IMG/VR virus record: IMGVR_UViG_3300032287_004484
Span: 62,001 to 126,000 of that record
Reading direction: 5' to 3' (one strand)
DNA: 64,000 nucleotides
From: a virus
Part shown: positions 8,099 to 51,771 of the stretch, piece by piece
How the letters are laid out: every line of letters starts with the position of its first letter
Numbering within the stretch: position 1 is the stretch's first letter
The notes under the pieces: generated by a model
Seen by the model: only the letters and a program-made list of their open reading frames with translations
Database searches by the model: none
Told to the model about the DNA's origin: nothing
Made by a program: the position numbers and the translations under genes

Positions 8099-10240
8099 TT
8101 AAGAACTCGCATTGTTGATAATTATTTCCGTATATCCATTTTGATAAAAATATGGATTAGTTATTTGATTATTAAATATATATACTGTTGAATCTGTAGA
8201 AGAATTATAAAAAACCGTTGCTGTATTTTTTAAATAAACATTATTTCTAAAAGTTATTTTATTCCAATTTAATGAAACACTAGTTAAATTACCTTTTACT
8301 TCAAAAACTAAAAAAGAATTTAAAGCTGTATTATCTGATTTTTTTACTTTTCTATATAATACTATTCCTAAGATTGATTCGGGTATATATGATCCAACCG
8401 AATTAAAAAAGAAATTTTTTGATAATAAACCTCTGCTAGGTCCAAAGTTAGCGTTACAATAAGATCCTTTAGAAATATAACCTAAACTATAATTAAAAAA
8501 ATCTTCGATACGATTATTTATAGTATCTATACTAGAAAATATATAAAATTCACCAACTGTTATATTTGTTTTTAGTATATCACAACTTATCTTTATTTTA
8601 AAATCTGATGTTGATGGTTTTGAATTAGAAGCAGTAATAGTGTATTCTGTTAATGGTAAATATGAAGATAAATTACCAGTAATTAATCCAGATGTAGAAT
8701 CTAAAATTACTCCAGATGGTAATAATGGAGAACTAAAACCAATATTATTTCCAGCACTGAAACTTGGTTTTAAAGTAAATAAATTATCACTAAAATCTTT
8801 TGCTAATATTGTTTCTGGATATATAAAATTATTGATATTTTCTAAAGAAGAAGATATTTTAATATTAATTATTGAAATTATGATTCTATTTAATTCATTA
8901 GTTGCTCTTATAGTATATGTTCTATTTTCTTGTTCTGCAGTTGGTACTCCGCTGATTTCGCCAGTTAAAGGATTTAAAGATAGTCCAGATGGTAAAGATG
9001 AATATATGCTAGTATCTAATATATATGTAAATTCATATTCCTCATTTATCATTGGAAAAACTTCTACTAAAGTCCCAATAGTTATTGATATATTACTTAT
9101 TGTATAATCAAAATAATTTAATCTGTCATCAATTGTTAAATAATTATTTTTACTTAAAAGAACATCTGTTCCTATTGATTTTGTTAATACTATTCTATTA
9201 CTTGTACCAACATTTGAAATTCCTATAAAAGTTCCATAAAATCTATTCCAAACAATACTAATAAATGATGTTGTATCGGTTCCACTATTTCTTATAAACC
9301 AATTTATTCCATCAACACTAGTAAATATTTTTTTAGTTACACCATTGCTCGTACTACTTGATATTACTACAAACATTTCTAATTCTTGTGACCATGTAAT
9401 AGATGATAAATTAAGACTTGTATTTGCTATTGAAATTCTATTCCATACAGATCCATTAGTAGAAATAGCACCAAAACCAGAATCACCAACAGCAACAAAA
9501 ACATTTAATTTTTGACTCCAAACTACAGAATTTAGCACTCCTTGTGGAGATGGTCCAACTACTACTGTCCAAGATTTACCATTATATTTAGAAAACATTA
9601 CGCGATTAGTACCATCTCTACTAACAGCTAAAAACATCTTTAAATCAGAACTATAAGTAATGCTTTCCCAAGAAACTGATCCATTATTTGGGGTAGTAAT
9701 TAAATTCCAAGTAATTCCATCTTTACTTGTCATGATTCTATTAGTTCCAGAATTAGATACTGCTACAAAATAACCATTACCATAAGTGACTGATTCCCAA
9801 TTATTATTTTGAGGTGAATTAATATAATTAAAATGTGTTGCTAATGTTGGAGCAGTAGATGTACTAGTTCCAGTTGAATAAAAAACTCTAGAAACGTTAA
9901 CTCCAGAAGCAGAAATTCCTACGAATTTTGCGTTACCATATGTTACGGTTTTCCAAACTTGATTAGTATTTCCTGATGGAGAAGTAGCAGAACTATTAAT
10001 ACCTGTCCAAGTGATGCCTCCATCATTAGAATAAGAAAAACTATTTGTTGCTGAATCTGAATTATTACTAACTGCTAACATATGTCCATTATTTTCGTTT
10101 ACTGCTAAAGAAGTCCAAGGTGATGCTATACCTGCTCTAACATACCAATTATCACCATATATACCAGCATAACTTTCTATATAGTTATCATATAATTGCT
10201 GTAATTCTATTATTACTTTTTTATTAACTGTAACTGGCAT
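8099..10240 (-). CDS. Modular tail fibre: Asp-box propeller plus two Ig-like domains (fibre C)
   Basis: A 713-aa protein with the best preserved Asp boxes of the three paralogues: YSNDGGITWTGI, TSKDGITWNLI, FSKYNGKSWTVV, ISTNGSVWNRI and TSVDGINWFIR, spaced about 45-55 residues over roughly residues 60-340. Ig-like modules start near residues 425 (LSLNPLTGEISG) and 515 (VILDSTSGLITG). The C-terminal 150 residues are unique and end NNASS. It starts MPVTVNKK; several fibre proteins in this operon start MP plus a hydrophobic residue. The gene follows a 111-bp spacer holding a hairpin. It shares a nearly identical 77-bp stretch with fibre B. Role in adsorption is inferred; no catalytic sialidase residues were recognised. 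Confidence 0.72.
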   Translation of the reverse strand: MPVTVNKKVIIELQQLYDNYIESYAGIYGDNWYVRAGIASPWTSLAVNENNGHMLAVSNNSDSATNSFSYSNDGGITWTGINSSATSPSGNTNQVWKTVTYGNAKFVGISASGVNVSRVFYSTGTSTSTAPTLATHFNYINSPQNNNWESVTYGNGYFVAVSNSGTNRIMTSKDGITWNLITTPNNGSVSWESITYSSDLKMFLAVSRDGTNRVMFSKYNGKSWTVVVGPSPQGVLNSVVWSQKLNVFVAVGDSGFGAISTNGSVWNRISIANTSLNLSSITWSQELEMFVVISSSTSNGVTKKIFTSVDGINWFIRNSGTDTTSFISIVWNRFYGTFIGISNVGTSNRIVLTKSIGTDVLLSKNNYLTIDDRLNYFDYTISNISITIGTLVEVFPMINEEYEFTYILDTSIYSSLPSGLSLNPLTGEISGVPTAEQENRTYTIRATNELNRIIISIINIKISSSLENINNFIYPETILAKDFSDNLFTLKPSFSAGNNIGFSSPLLPSGVILDSTSGLITGNLSSYLPLTEYTITASNSKPSTSDFKIKISCDILKTNITVGEFYIFSSIDTINNRIEDFFNYSLGYISKGSYCNANFGPSRGLLSKNFFFNSVGSYIPESILGIVLYRKVKKSDNTALNSFLVFEVKGNLTSVSLNWNKITFRNNVYLKNTATVFYNSSTDSTVYIFNNQITNPYFYQNGYTEIIINNASS
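9758..9834. repeat. Near-identical copy 2 of the 77-bp segment, in fibre C
   Basis: Second copy of the segment at 7634-7710, encoding SPQNNNWESVTYGNGYF in fibre C, with one mismatch. Only this part of the propeller is nearly identical at DNA level. Confidence 0.85.
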
Positions 10241-11585: not shown

Positions 11586-12764
11586 TTATATTTCCTTATA
11601 TATCCTAAGATTAACAGTATTTAGAGTTTTATTTTGAAAATAAACTAAATTATCTAATTTTAAATAAACATTTAATTTATCACTTGAATTTGCTGTTATA
11701 GTAACGTCATCACTGTTTGTATCAACCCTAACTAGAGGTTCACTTAAACCATTATTTTTTAAAGATATAGTTCCACTTATTGTTGGATTACTAATATCAA
11801 AGAAACGATATTGAGCTGATTCTTGCGTTATAAATAAAGATAATAAAGATATTTCACTATTAACTGTTAAAGAATATTCTTTTCTAGTAGAATAAAGATC
11901 ATATCCTGTAAAGAGATATTGTTTTAAATATTGAATTGTAATTTTAGAATTTAACGGAGGATAACCAGAAAAAGTAATTATATTATTATTAAGTGTAAAA
12001 GCATCTCCAGGTATTTGAAAAAGACCATTAATAAAAACAGTAGTAGTATCTATTGATGTTGGTATTTGTGATAATACATAAGTGTTTTGAGAACCAGTTC
12101 CAGTAAAAGTTTCTCTAATAATGCTTTGATTAGTTTTAATTTCTATATCAGCTACATTTAAATTTATAAAAGCTTTAGTTCTAGATATTGCTGTAAATAA
12201 CTTAACATTAGTTTTAAAATTAACTATTTTACCATTATTAGATGAAAGATAATAGTTTTGTCCTGGAATTAATCCGCTATAAGATTCACTATAATCTTTA
12301 AGTGAATTCCAGTTAGTAACTGGAAGATTTAATTCTCCTATTTTTATAGCAGTATAACTATTAGGTGTAGCACTTTGTTTTTTACTTATTACATACTGGG
12401 AATATTTTTCATTTTCACTAGAATTACCTAATTCATAATCATAAAAATTAACTGTACCTGAAGAAGTCGTGCTAGTATTTATTCCTGTTACAGATAGGGA
12501 CGTTCCATTTAATGCAATGTTAGTAAAATAATTATTAGATGGTATAGTAATATCAGAAAAATTCAAAAATAAACTTTTATAACCAGAAGTTAACGCTGAT
12601 GCTGATGTAATAGATGCTGTTTTATTACCAGAACTTCCACTTAATGTATAATTACCAAAACCAATCTGCTTATAATAAACAGGTGATCCTAATGGAAAAT
12701 CTTGAGAAGAAACAAATTTTATTGTTGCTCCAGTGTTATTAGTATTAATAAATTTTAATGCCAA
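11586..12764 (-). CDS. Tail-fibre family protein with shared C-terminal module
   Basis: A 392-aa beta-rich protein of unknown exact function. Its last 75 residues (from YRFFDISNPTISG to VNLRIYKEI) align with the last 80 residues of the 2336-aa protein (YRIFDLNDPTIN to MNLRFYKEN), showing a shared C-terminal module. A middle segment (GSQNTYVLSQIPTSIDTTTV, then FINGLFQIPGDAF) resembles a motif seen in phage fibre shafts, where a short strand follows an expected-value type repeat. It starts MALKFINTNNTG. It lies between other fibre genes with 4-bp or shorter spacing. A structural role in the tail fibre or baseplate periphery is inferred from context and module sharing. Confidence 0.6.
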   Translation of the reverse strand: MALKFINTNNTGATIKFVSSQDFPLGSPVYYKQIGFGNYTLSGSSGNKTASITSASALTSGYKSLFLNFSDITIPSNNYFTNIALNGTSLSVTGINTSTTSSGTVNFYDYELGNSSENEKYSQYVISKKQSATPNSYTAIKIGELNLPVTNWNSLKDYSESYSGLIPGQNYYLSSNNGKIVNFKTNVKLFTAISRTKAFINLNVADIEIKTNQSIIRETFTGTGSQNTYVLSQIPTSIDTTTVFINGLFQIPGDAFTLNNNIITFSGYPPLNSKITIQYLKQYLFTGYDLYSTRKEYSLTVNSEISLLSLFITQESAQYRFFDISNPTISGTISLKNNGLSEPLVRVDTNSDDVTITANSSDKLNVYLKLDNLVYFQNKTLNTVNLRIYKEI

Positions 12765-42510: not shown

Positions 42511-43122
42511 ATGTCTTTTACTAAATTAAATTCTGACCTTATAAGAGCATTATCTAATGATCCAAGTGGATTAGGGGCTTCTACTGATATTCAAAAACAC
42601 GCAAATGATTTTAGTGATGCTGTAGATAATTATGTTAAAACTCTAAATGATCCTGGTTTAAGAAAAGTATTATCTACTACTAAAACTTTAATTTATTCTC
42701 AAATAATATCGTTATTAACTTTAACTGATCTTGGAAGTTCTTCTCTTAATGCTTCTCAATCAGCTTTAAAATATGCAACAGGTCTTAATTCTTATATTAG
42801 TGCAATTCAAATATCTAAAGTTAATGTTACTAATTTAATTGCACCTGCTTATATTAATCCCGGAATTGTTTCTACGGCTACATTAACAAATAATAATATT
42901 ATAAGTGATTTACAAAATTCTTTTAAAAATATTTTTGATGCTACTAGTGATCCTAATTCTACTATTTCTATTATTATTTCTAGTAAAGCATCTCAAATCG
43001 CTAATATAGTTAAGGATGCTGTTATTCAAAAAACTTTAATAACTATATCAGGAAACGATAGTACCCCTACACCTCTAGGACCTAAACCATTTACTTTATC
43101 AGGAAAATTTGTGGAGACATAA
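42511..43122 (+). CDS. Unknown protein after the spike gene
   Basis: A 203-aa protein rich in Ser, Asn, Thr and Ile, with helical segments at about 10-45 (NDPSGLGASTDIQKHANDFS) and 50-90, and a Pro-rich C-terminus (DSTPTPLGPKPFTLSGKF). It starts seven bases after the spike stop. There is no PAAR motif or enzymatic signature. Closeness to the spike suggests a baseplate component or assembly factor. I do not recognise its family. Confidence 0.6.
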   Translation: MSFTKLNSDLIRALSNDPSGLGASTDIQKHANDFSDAVDNYVKTLNDPGLRKVLSTTKTLIYSQIISLLTLTDLGSSSLNASQSALKYATGLNSYISAIQISKVNVTNLIAPAYINPGIVSTATLTNNNIISDLQNSFKNIFDATSDPNSTISIIISSKASQIANIVKDAVIQKTLITISGNDSTPTPLGPKPFTLSGKFVET

Positions 43123-43123
43123 T

Positions 43124-43429
43124 ATGAAATGTGTTTGTTGTGAAAAAGAAATTTTTTTAAAACCTAAAGTTTCAATGGTTTTTAATAGTGAAAATAATGA
43201 TCCTATAATAACAAAAAAAAGAGAATATGTACACGAATCTGATTCTTTTGTTGAATATGATGATATTTTAATTAAGGATTTAGAAAATAGAGAAAAAAGA
43301 ATAACAGTTATTTGTGATGAAAAAATAATGATTACAAAATCTTTTTGTGAAGAGTGTTATATAAACTTTATTAAAGATAAATTAGAAGATTTGATGGAAA
43401 ATTTAGCAACATTTAGGAATAAAAAATGA
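43124..43429 (+). CDS. Small zinc-ribbon-like protein
   Basis: A 101-aa protein starting MKCVCCEKEIFLKPK. The ATG at 43124 is preferred over an upstream TTG because a TGGAGA Shine-Dalgarno lies eight bases before it and it follows the previous stop directly. Cys3, Cys5 and Cys6 near the start and C-x-x-C in SFCEECYINF (about residues 77-86) could form one zinc site. The middle is charged and the C-terminus helical. Function unknown; small Zn-ribbon proteins in tail operons may be assembly chaperones. The Shine-Dalgarno region is fully complementary (8 nt) to part of the small RNA at 51253-51349. Confidence 0.6.
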   Translation: MKCVCCEKEIFLKPKVSMVFNSENNDPIITKKREYVHESDSFVEYDDILIKDLENREKRITVICDEKIMITKSFCEECYINFIKDKLEDLMENLATFRNKK

Positions 43430-48202: not shown

Positions 48203-48241
48203 ATTATAATATTTTTTAAACTAAGTGTTTAAACCTAAAAA
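48203..48241 (-). promoter_or_regulatory. Promoter P2 (GGTTTAAACA type), leftward
   Basis: On the minus strand: TTTTTAGGTTTAAACA with -35 TAAACA (48231-48226), a 17-bp spacer and a perfect -10 TATAAT (48208-48203), upstream of the membrane-protein gene. It shares its upstream element with four other sites in this island and is arranged as an inverted repeat with P1 (AAACCTAAAAA/TTTTTAGGTTT). Confidence 0.7.
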
Positions 48242-50540: not shown

Positions 50541-50969
50541 TTACAAAATAAATGAAAGAACGTTATCTTCCTCATCTAAATAGGTAGATAACGGAAACTC
50601 ATTTGTTTTTTCATCTATAAGAATATCGTTATTACAAATTAAAATTGCATCTGGCCAATCATTATGTTCTTCTCTTAAAAAATCTAAGAATTTTTCTAGG
50701 TCATAAACTGTTAATATTTTATCTTCCTCAAATCCAGTTGAGTCAAATAATAGAAGATTTTCTTTTTCATCATATTCTATTGAATTTACGTCAAATTGTA
50801 ATTCTGTATCATCACTTATTTGAATTGAATATTCAAGTTTTGTATCTTTCCAATTATCATAATTTTCTTTACAAAAATTAATCATTTGTTGAATTTCATT
50901 ACATTTCAAATAAGGCGTCATATCACTCATTATTTCATTTAATAAATCTTTAAAGAAATCTTCTTCCAT
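50541..50969 (-). CDS. Small acidic protein
   Basis: A 142-aa, very acidic protein (about 35 Asp and Glu) with no family recognised. N-terminal helices (FFKDLLNEIMSDMTPYLKC) are followed by beta strands (LEYSIQISDDTELQFDVNSI, then DEKENLLLFDSTG) and a helix (DLEKFLDFLREEHND). A strong AGGAGA precedes the ATG. It is divergent from the small-RNA region and convergent with the ligase gene. Small acidic proteins near early promoters are often DNA mimics or host-takeover factors; that is only an inference from composition. Confidence 0.65.
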   Translation of the reverse strand: MEEDFFKDLLNEIMSDMTPYLKCNEIQQMINFCKENYDNWKDTKLEYSIQISDDTELQFDVNSIEYDEKENLLLFDSTGFEEDKILTVYDLEKFLDFLREEHNDWPDAILICNNDILIDEKTNEFPLSTYLDEEDNVLSFIL

Positions 50970-51050: not shown

Positions 51051-51091
51051 TTTTTTTGGGTTTAAACACTTAATACAAAAAATAGTAGTAT
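51051..51091 (+). promoter_or_regulatory. Promoter P3 (GGTTTAAACA type) of small RNA 1
   Basis: TTTTTTTGGGTTTAAACA with -35 TAAACA (51063-51068), 17 bp, then a weaker -10 TAGTAT (51086-51091). The predicted start about seven bases on (51098) gives a 97-nt transcript to the terminator at 51194. Confidence 0.6.
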
Positions 51092-51097
51092 ATATTA

Positions 51098-51194
51098 TAG
51101 AAAAGAAAAAATAATAAAAGCAATTCTAATTTTTAATTTCGTCTCCAGTAAAATTCCTAGTCCACTCTAAGAAATTAGAGTGGATATTTTTTTT
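51098..51194 (+). ncRNA. Putative small RNA 1 of a tandem pair
   Basis: A free-standing transcription unit without a credible reading frame. It runs from the predicted start of P3 to an intrinsic terminator. It contains an A-rich leader, the conserved 30-nt block at 51120-51149 (GCAATTCTAATTT, two variable bases, AATTT, C, GTCTCCAGT), a short linker and the terminator stem with a GAAA loop. The block is 27/30 identical to that in small RNA 2. The GUCUCCA part appears unpaired by eye and is complementary to the GGAGA Shine-Dalgarno core that this phage uses often. Function is inferred; transcript ends are predicted to within a few bases. Confidence 0.65.
51161..51194 (+). terminator. Intrinsic terminator of small RNA 1
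   Basis: TCCACTCTAA, GAAA tetraloop, TTAGAGTGGA (10-bp perfect stem, one extra G-U pair possible), then TA and eight U. The GNRA loop and U-run orient it rightward. Confidence 0.85.
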
Positions 51195-51208
51195 ATCTAA
51201 AGATTTTC

Positions 51209-51246
51209 TTTTAGGTTTATACATCTAGTATAATAAATAGTAAAGT
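51209..51246 (+). promoter_or_regulatory. Promoter P4 (GGTTTATACA type) of small RNA 2
   Basis: TTTTAGGTTTATACA with -35 TATACA (51218-51223), 17 bp, then -10 TAAAGT (51241-51246). A better -10 match, TATAAT, lies at 51229-51234 but at the wrong distance. With the 17-bp arrangement the start is near 51253, giving a second 97-nt RNA. Confidence 0.55.
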
Positions 51247-51252
51247 AGTTAT

Positions 51253-51349
51253 ATAATAAAAAAAAACGCAATTCTAATTTACAATTTTGTCTCCAGTTTA
51301 AATTTAAGTTTTTAGATCCACCCTGAGAAATCAGGGTGGATATTTTTTT
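51253..51349 (+). ncRNA. Putative small RNA 2 of a tandem pair
   Basis: The second copy has the same layout: A-rich leader, conserved block at 51268-51297 (GCAATTCTAATTT, AC, AATTT, T, GTCTCCAGT), linker and terminator. Predicted length is 97 nt, equal to small RNA 1. The stem sequences differ from copy 1 by compensating changes (TCCACTCTAA versus TCCACCCTGA, with matching partner strands), which shows that the stem structure has been kept under selection while the conserved block has stayed nearly fixed. UGUCUCCA (51288-51295) is fully complementary to TGGAGACA at 43112-43119, the Shine-Dalgarno region of the zinc-ribbon gene. Confidence 0.68.
51316..51349 (+). terminator. Intrinsic terminator of small RNA 2
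   Basis: ATCCACCCTGA, GAAA tetraloop, TCAGGGTGGAT: an 11-bp perfect stem followed by A and seven U. It is the most G+C-rich hairpin seen in the window. Confidence 0.9.
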
Positions 51350-51362
51350 ATTTAACGGTCTA

Positions 51363-51401
51363 TTTTTAGGTTTATACATTAAATTTACAAAATAATATAA
51401 T
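51363..51401 (+). promoter_or_regulatory. Promoter P5 (GGTTTATACA type)
   Basis: TTTTTAGGTTTATACA with -35 TATACA (51373-51378), exactly 17 bp and a perfect -10 TATAAT (51396-51401). The predicted start near 51408 leaves an about 25-nt leader before the 112-aa gene and probably serves the FEN nuclease gene as well. Confidence 0.72.
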
Positions 51402-51432
51402 AGAAAGAAATAAATATAGAAAAATATATAAT

Positions 51433-51771
51433 ATGGAAGAAGAAGAAAAAAGTAATTCTTTTGGATTAGAAGGAAATCAAGAAAGATATGATGATAATGT
51501 TGATAAATTTCTTAAAAGAATACAAGATTTTAAAAAAAATCACTGGAACTCCGTAGATCATATTGTAGATGTTTCTATTACAAATTTTATTTTATTAGAA
51601 CATTTTTTAACTATTATTATTTCAAAAGTAGTAGAAATTCAAAATAGAGGAGATTCTTCTTTTAATAAAGAAGAAAAAATAGAGGAAGTATTTGAAAACT
51701 TATTAAGTGCTTTTTCTATCTATAAAGAAGATTTATTAGAGATATTAGCTAAAAATAGAGATGAGGAGTGA
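51433..51771 (+). CDS. Small unknown protein before the 5' nuclease gene
   Basis: A 112-aa acidic protein, mostly helical (NVDKFLKRIQDFKKNHWNSV, then SITNFILLEHFLTIIISKVV). The hydrophobic helix at about residues 48-65 looks buried rather than membrane-spanning. There is no recognised family. It is the first gene after promoter P5 and ends three bases before the GTG of the FEN-type nuclease gene, so both belong to one transcript, which suggests a replication-linked role without proving one. Confidence 0.6.
   Translation: MEEEEKSNSFGLEGNQERYDDNVDKFLKRIQDFKKNHWNSVDHIVDVSITNFILLEHFLTIIISKVVEIQNRGDSSFNKEEKIEEVFENLLSAFSIYKEDLLEILAKNRDEE

Follow-up and report, generated by a model that had tools for sequence, protein, structure and literature searches.

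Two tandem units in the genome of a large phage, each running from a promoter to a terminator with no gene in between, very probably encode genuine small RNAs. There is about an even chance, judged from complementarity, that these RNAs act by antisense on an array of small phage genes whose Shine-Dalgarno (SD) sequences match a short seed present in both.

Two gene-less transcription units and their predicted RNAs

The window is the whole stretch of DNA analyzed, 64,000 nucleotides that correspond to bases 62001 to 126000 of a 290,274-base virus record; positions refer to the window unless the record is named. The two units are arranged head to tail between a convergent gene for a 142-amino-acid protein (50541 to 50969, minus strand) and a gene for a 112-amino-acid protein that starts at 51433 on the plus strand. 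Each is preceded by a TTTTTRGGTTTAWACAYYTA-type promoter and has an A-rich start, and neither contains a credible open reading frame. The promoter cores are exact, GGTTTAAACA at 51059 for unit 1 and GGTTTATACA at 51214 for unit 2. In the record, the exact GGTTTAWACA core occurs 19 times, compared with 0 occurrences of the reversed pattern that served as a control, so the class is real; a preliminary description of the window had assigned this promoter type to both units.

The unit 1 promoter (51059 to 51097, plus strand) lies downstream of a T-tract and combines TAAACA as the −35 element (51063 to 51068) with a weak −10 element, TAGTAT (51086 to 51091). Its matrix score, 28.3, is among the highest of the class. 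The unit 2 promoter (51214 to 51252, plus strand) scores 27.6 and also has a weak −10 element, TAAAGT (51241 to 51246). A third promoter of the class, with its leader (51369 to 51432, plus strand), serves the 112-amino-acid gene at 51433 and not a small RNA. About 35 promoters found with the matrix were inspected; only those of units 1 and 2 and one at the syntenic locus of a relative are followed by a terminator with no gene in between, and all the rest lead to genes. Divergent exact promoters of the same class at 48226 (minus strand) and 48263 (plus strand) serve genes on opposite strands. A phage multisubunit RNA polymerase, as in AR9 (PMC5312081), was rejected as the enzyme behind this promoter class, as no Rpb2_6 domain was found in the phage.

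Transcription starts were placed with a ruler taken from the cassette array described below, where the leaderless ATG lies 39 nt from the promoter GG in 15 of 16 cassettes and 40 nt in the remaining one. By this rule the units begin at 51098 and 51253 and yield predicted RNAs of 97 nt each (51098 to 51194 and 51253 to 51349, both on the plus strand). The same starts and lengths had been proposed in the preliminary description, and the cassette ruler agrees with them independently; the length depends on the start site, and the −10 elements at this spacing are weak. Unit 2 has an extra TATAAT 11 nt further downstream, use of which would shorten the RNA, and its transcription possibly starts about 11 nt later. 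Seven promoters of the class at other places in the record (39780, 146415, 198607, 241780, 250941, 252336, and 268338) have an ATG 39 to 42 nt from the GG, and their genes are probably expressed from leaderless mRNAs. We infer that the leaderless AUGs of these genes and of the cassettes coincide with the transcription start.

A 30-nt block (51120 to 51149 in unit 1 and 51268 to 51297 in unit 2, plus strand) is identical at 27 of 30 positions. Outside it, the siblings have diverged, with insertions and deletions, in the 5′ part and in the linker that precedes the terminator. No further copy of the block was found in the genome, either within 3 mismatches or with a covariance model of the units. 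The block contains the predicted seeds, UCGUCUCCA at 51139 to 51147 and UUGUCUCCA at 51287 to 51295, which differ by one base. It forms no hairpin and is mostly unpaired in RNAs whose fold z-scores are −2.7 and −4.3. The core GUCUCCA, described earlier as exposed, is indeed unpaired in both centroid structures, but part of it is weakly paired in the minimum-energy fold of unit 2.

Both units end in a terminator with an 11-bp stem, a GAAA loop, and a U-run: GUCCACUCUAA-GAAA-UUAGAGUGGAU in unit 1 (51160 to 51194, plus strand) and AUCCACCCUGA-GAAA-UCAGGGUGGAU in unit 2 (51316 to 51349, plus strand). Thus, the original picture of two units with no credible gene, GAAA-capped terminators, and a 27/30 block was borne out by the sequence. 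All 11 stem pairs are kept between the units, and two are changed on both sides, as had been reported; as evidence for conservation, however, these paired changes are descriptive only, coming from two sequences and being equaled by 118 of 500 shuffles. Strong, perfect terminators cluster in the two units and the one cassette array, with some elsewhere.

Seed complementarity to an array of small-gene cassettes

The array lies outside the window, at 22.8 to 32.4 kb of the record, and comprises some 15 to 16 small-gene cassettes on both strands; the part matched by the seed, at 22.8 to 30.4 kb, is about 85 kb from the units. Each cassette holds a single small gene behind a promoter of its own, usually followed by a separate GNRA-capped terminator. 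In 16 cassettes the inferred transcription start is marked by ATGAAAAGA(A/G)AA, the first bases of a leader of 53 to 87 nt; all 16 leaders are open, and 13 are in frame with the SD-preceded ATG. The UGGAGAC stretch within them is read in two leader-peptide frames (METK or GD), which indicates that it is conserved as nucleotides. Two SD subclasses are present among the cassettes, UGGAGACG, which fits the unit 1 seed, and UGGAGACA, which fits the unit 2 seed. The cassette proteins have no significant Pfam match and one match to a PHROG of unknown function (phrog_21015), and no phage relative was found for the one cassette protein searched. PDB matches of a cassette profile were to designed barrels or were weak and were not accepted as homology. 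Relatives of one cassette protein are found outside the array, where the SDs that we read are of other types. A long antisense duplication from a cassette was considered as the origin of the units and rejected by eye, with only about 9 nt in common.

Pairing between the seed and the cassettes is predicted to be 7/7 Watson-Crick with a UGGAGAC SD in 11 cassettes, and 4 more (UGGAGAU) pair with one G-U pair. Unit 1 is fully complementary (9/9) to four UGGAGACGA cassette sites, and unit 2 pairs over 8 to 9 nt with UGGAGACA sites in three other cassettes and before a gene at 43124. Of the 24 UGGAGAC sites in the record, 11 serve as cassette SDs and 2 belong to the units' own antisense strand. All four non-self UGGAGACGA sites in the record are cassette SDs. 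UGGAGACU, present in four cassettes, gives no match beyond 7 nt, and cassette pairing leaves the greater part of the conserved block (GCAAUUCUAAUUU) unexplained. A 48-amino-acid gene outside the array (record 12171 to 12317) has UGGAGACU as its SD, a dedicated promoter of the class at 12109, and a terminator; it is a possible further target.

The sole predicted target in the window is the UGGAGACA SD (43112 to 43119, plus strand) of a small CxxC gene starting at 43124, which matches unit 2 over 8 nt. This match had been noted before, and it is the only site named there that pairs over such a length. The other SDs listed were correct as sequence, but those genes have GGAGAA or GGAGA(A) and form only 5 bp with the seed; generic GGAGA SDs match any UCUCC over 5 nt.

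Is the complementarity more than expected by chance? Across 224 called start regions, with genes called by a simple script, it is ordinary, since 432 and 471 of 1,000 random genomic segments equal the two RNAs in duplex energy. The earlier proposal that the RNAs mask the ribosome binding sites of many genes is not supported by this result. Selectivity of duplex energy for the cassettes gave a different outcome: 0 of 1,000 random genomic segments were as selective, for either RNA, and 0/300 and 1/300 shuffles were as good. The array was noticed through the seed match, making these array-based statistics partly post hoc. The leaders of the cassettes share a common ancestry, as do the units, so neither side represents many independent cases. 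An array-blind count found that 15 of 353 ribosome binding sites contain a GC-rich 7-mer complement, a number reached by 2 of 5,000 segments; k-mer counts are ordinary once the GC condition is removed. As first suggested, the units are still best read as small RNAs that expose an anti-Shine-Dalgarno seed, but the selective match is to an array outside the window and not to many ribosome binding sites.

Genuine small RNAs could instead have a host RNA as their relevant partner, either through host mRNA SDs or by sponging a host small RNA, with the cassette match arising from common SD-like sequence. UCUCC fits SDs generally, and the phage small RNAs AgvB and AsxR (PMC4104026) and PreS (PMC12197685) have host partners. 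We regard this alternative as unlikely, though as the best of those considered here, since selectivity for the cassettes far exceeds that of shuffles and genomic segments while general SD complementarity is ordinary.

Proposed mechanism and comparison with known systems

If the cassettes are the targets, each unit would yield a 97-nt trans-acting RNA, the two forming a sibling pair. The seeds UCGUCUCCA and UUGUCUCCA would pair with UGGAGAC(G/A/U) at the SDs of cassette mRNAs and keep the ribosome off, so that translation of about 15 small proteins would be lowered or delayed together. The one-base difference between the seeds would fit the two SD subclasses, unit 1 acting on UGGAGACG and unit 2 on UGGAGACA. 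Alternatively, pairing at the internal SD might shift start choice, which is conceivable given that a leaderless AUG, usually in frame, stands at the head of the cassette mRNAs as well. More tentatively, the whole may form an internal RNA regulon in which sibling small RNAs with slightly different seeds jointly control some 15 monocistronic accessory cassettes in trans; a dedicated SD variant would mark these cassettes, which might also be switched between leaderless long forms and SD-initiated short forms. We consider this full version possible but somewhat doubtful. If true, a free-standing pair of RNAs whose seed is adapted to an entire array of phage genes would make up a post-transcriptional regulon within a phage and offer a way into small accessory genes that are otherwise unreadable. 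The pairing is predicted precisely, as 7 to 9 base pairs with named targets. The phage small RNAs covered by the review consulted come for the most part from temperate phages, and their targets are host RNAs or individual phage genes.

LhrC1-5 of Listeria are multicopy CU-rich anti-SD small RNAs, and RNAIII, RsaE, SprD, and FsrA also have a UCCC motif (PMC4132741). The units resemble the LhrC/RsaE type in being near-identical short RNAs in several copies with their own terminators (two copies here) and in having an unstructured CU-rich seed that would cover the SD of several mRNAs (here, 15 predicted cassette SDs). They differ in being phage encoded, in having a phage gene array as predicted target, in carrying one seed copy per RNA with the core GUCUCCA (UCUCC) and no UCCC, and in lacking an Rfam sequence or structure match at cutoffs. 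The sar RNA of P22 and the c4 RNA of P1/P7 are phage antisense RNAs of temperate phages, each controlling one antirepressor gene (PMC12197685). They share with the units complementarity of a phage RNA to the ribosome-binding region of phage mRNA. Unlike them, the units are free-standing, duplicated, and far from their many predicted targets, which are an array of small genes and not the ant (antirepressor) ribosome binding site. VpdS of VP882 and PreS of lambda are Hfq-dependent phage small RNAs with host targets, and VpdS also acts on phage mRNAs (PMC12197685). Both are, as proposed for the units, phage-encoded trans-acting small RNAs, and both are used in phage development; they differ in having host targets. 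The units would work like anti-SD RNAs of the LhrC/RsaE type (PMC4132741) and like sar and c4 (PMC12197685), and by sequence they belong to none of these.

Relatives, database searches, and remaining alternatives

Searches of IMG/VR with block, promoter, and promoter-plus-seed patterns and with five protein queries returned, as near relatives, two fragments only (ligase, 81 to 82%; exonuclease, 68 to 71%), as well as distant exonuclease homologues without units. The cassette family is absent from both near-relative fragments. One of them, IMGVR_UViG_3300032234_001062, has no unit at the locus. The other, IMGVR_UViG_3300032285_005160, has at the syntenic locus (approximately 8907 to 9056) a promoter and a terminator with no gene between them, a unit of about 97 nt with a different CU-rich core, UAUUCUCUC.

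The lack of a unit in one relative and the largely different sequence in the other would suit transcribed spacers, short promoter-terminator units that shield the operon behind them or serve to load polymerase without any function at the RNA level, the block being kept because the duplication is recent. That the next gene has its own promoter fits as well. Such spacers would not be expected to keep the block at 27/30 while the flanking 5′ part and linker drifted with insertions and deletions, or to carry a seed selective for the cassettes, and we find this explanation distinctly unlikely.

The conserved block exceeds the 9-nt seed, as it might if an RNA-binding protein of the phage or the host recognized it and the RNAs were decoys. 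GGA is present in the cassette SDs, and reading of the sequences places some of these in short potential hairpins. The units themselves have no GGA and so would not be CsrA-type decoys, and CsrA was not found in the phage; a decoy role is improbable.

Searches for the units in phages and plasmids gave no match, and Rfam gave no family at the gathering score, the best weak match being to Ref84 (33.4 bits versus 52). A block pattern matched the genome collection six times, all unrelated: five seem to fall within or close to coding sequence of no relation, and the sixth is intergenic, at a distance of 0.3 kb from a 33-nt repeat in two copies to which it bears no resemblance. An RNA anti-CRISPR, a solitary repeat mimic with its own promoter, is highly improbable: the block is about repeat length and Rfam CRISPR-DR35 weakly matches 51315 to 51346 (23.1 bits; cutoff, 35), but that match falls on the terminator instead of the block, which forms no hairpin, and none of the six genome matches is itself an array repeat.

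The different core of the unit in IMGVR_UViG_3300032285_005160 counts against the antisense reading, as do the weak −10 elements of units 1 and 2. The covariance model of the units does not detect the relative's unit. Its 5′ part aligns to unit 2 better than 1,994 of 2,000 shuffles and to unit 1 at chance level (526/2,000 shuffles). It is a positional counterpart and probably homologous. A further observation is suggestive only: two cassettes in the phage studied here have SDs other than UGGAGA(C/U), and the core UAUUCUCUC is perfectly complementary to one of these SDs, GAGAGAAUA, and matches the other over 7 nt.
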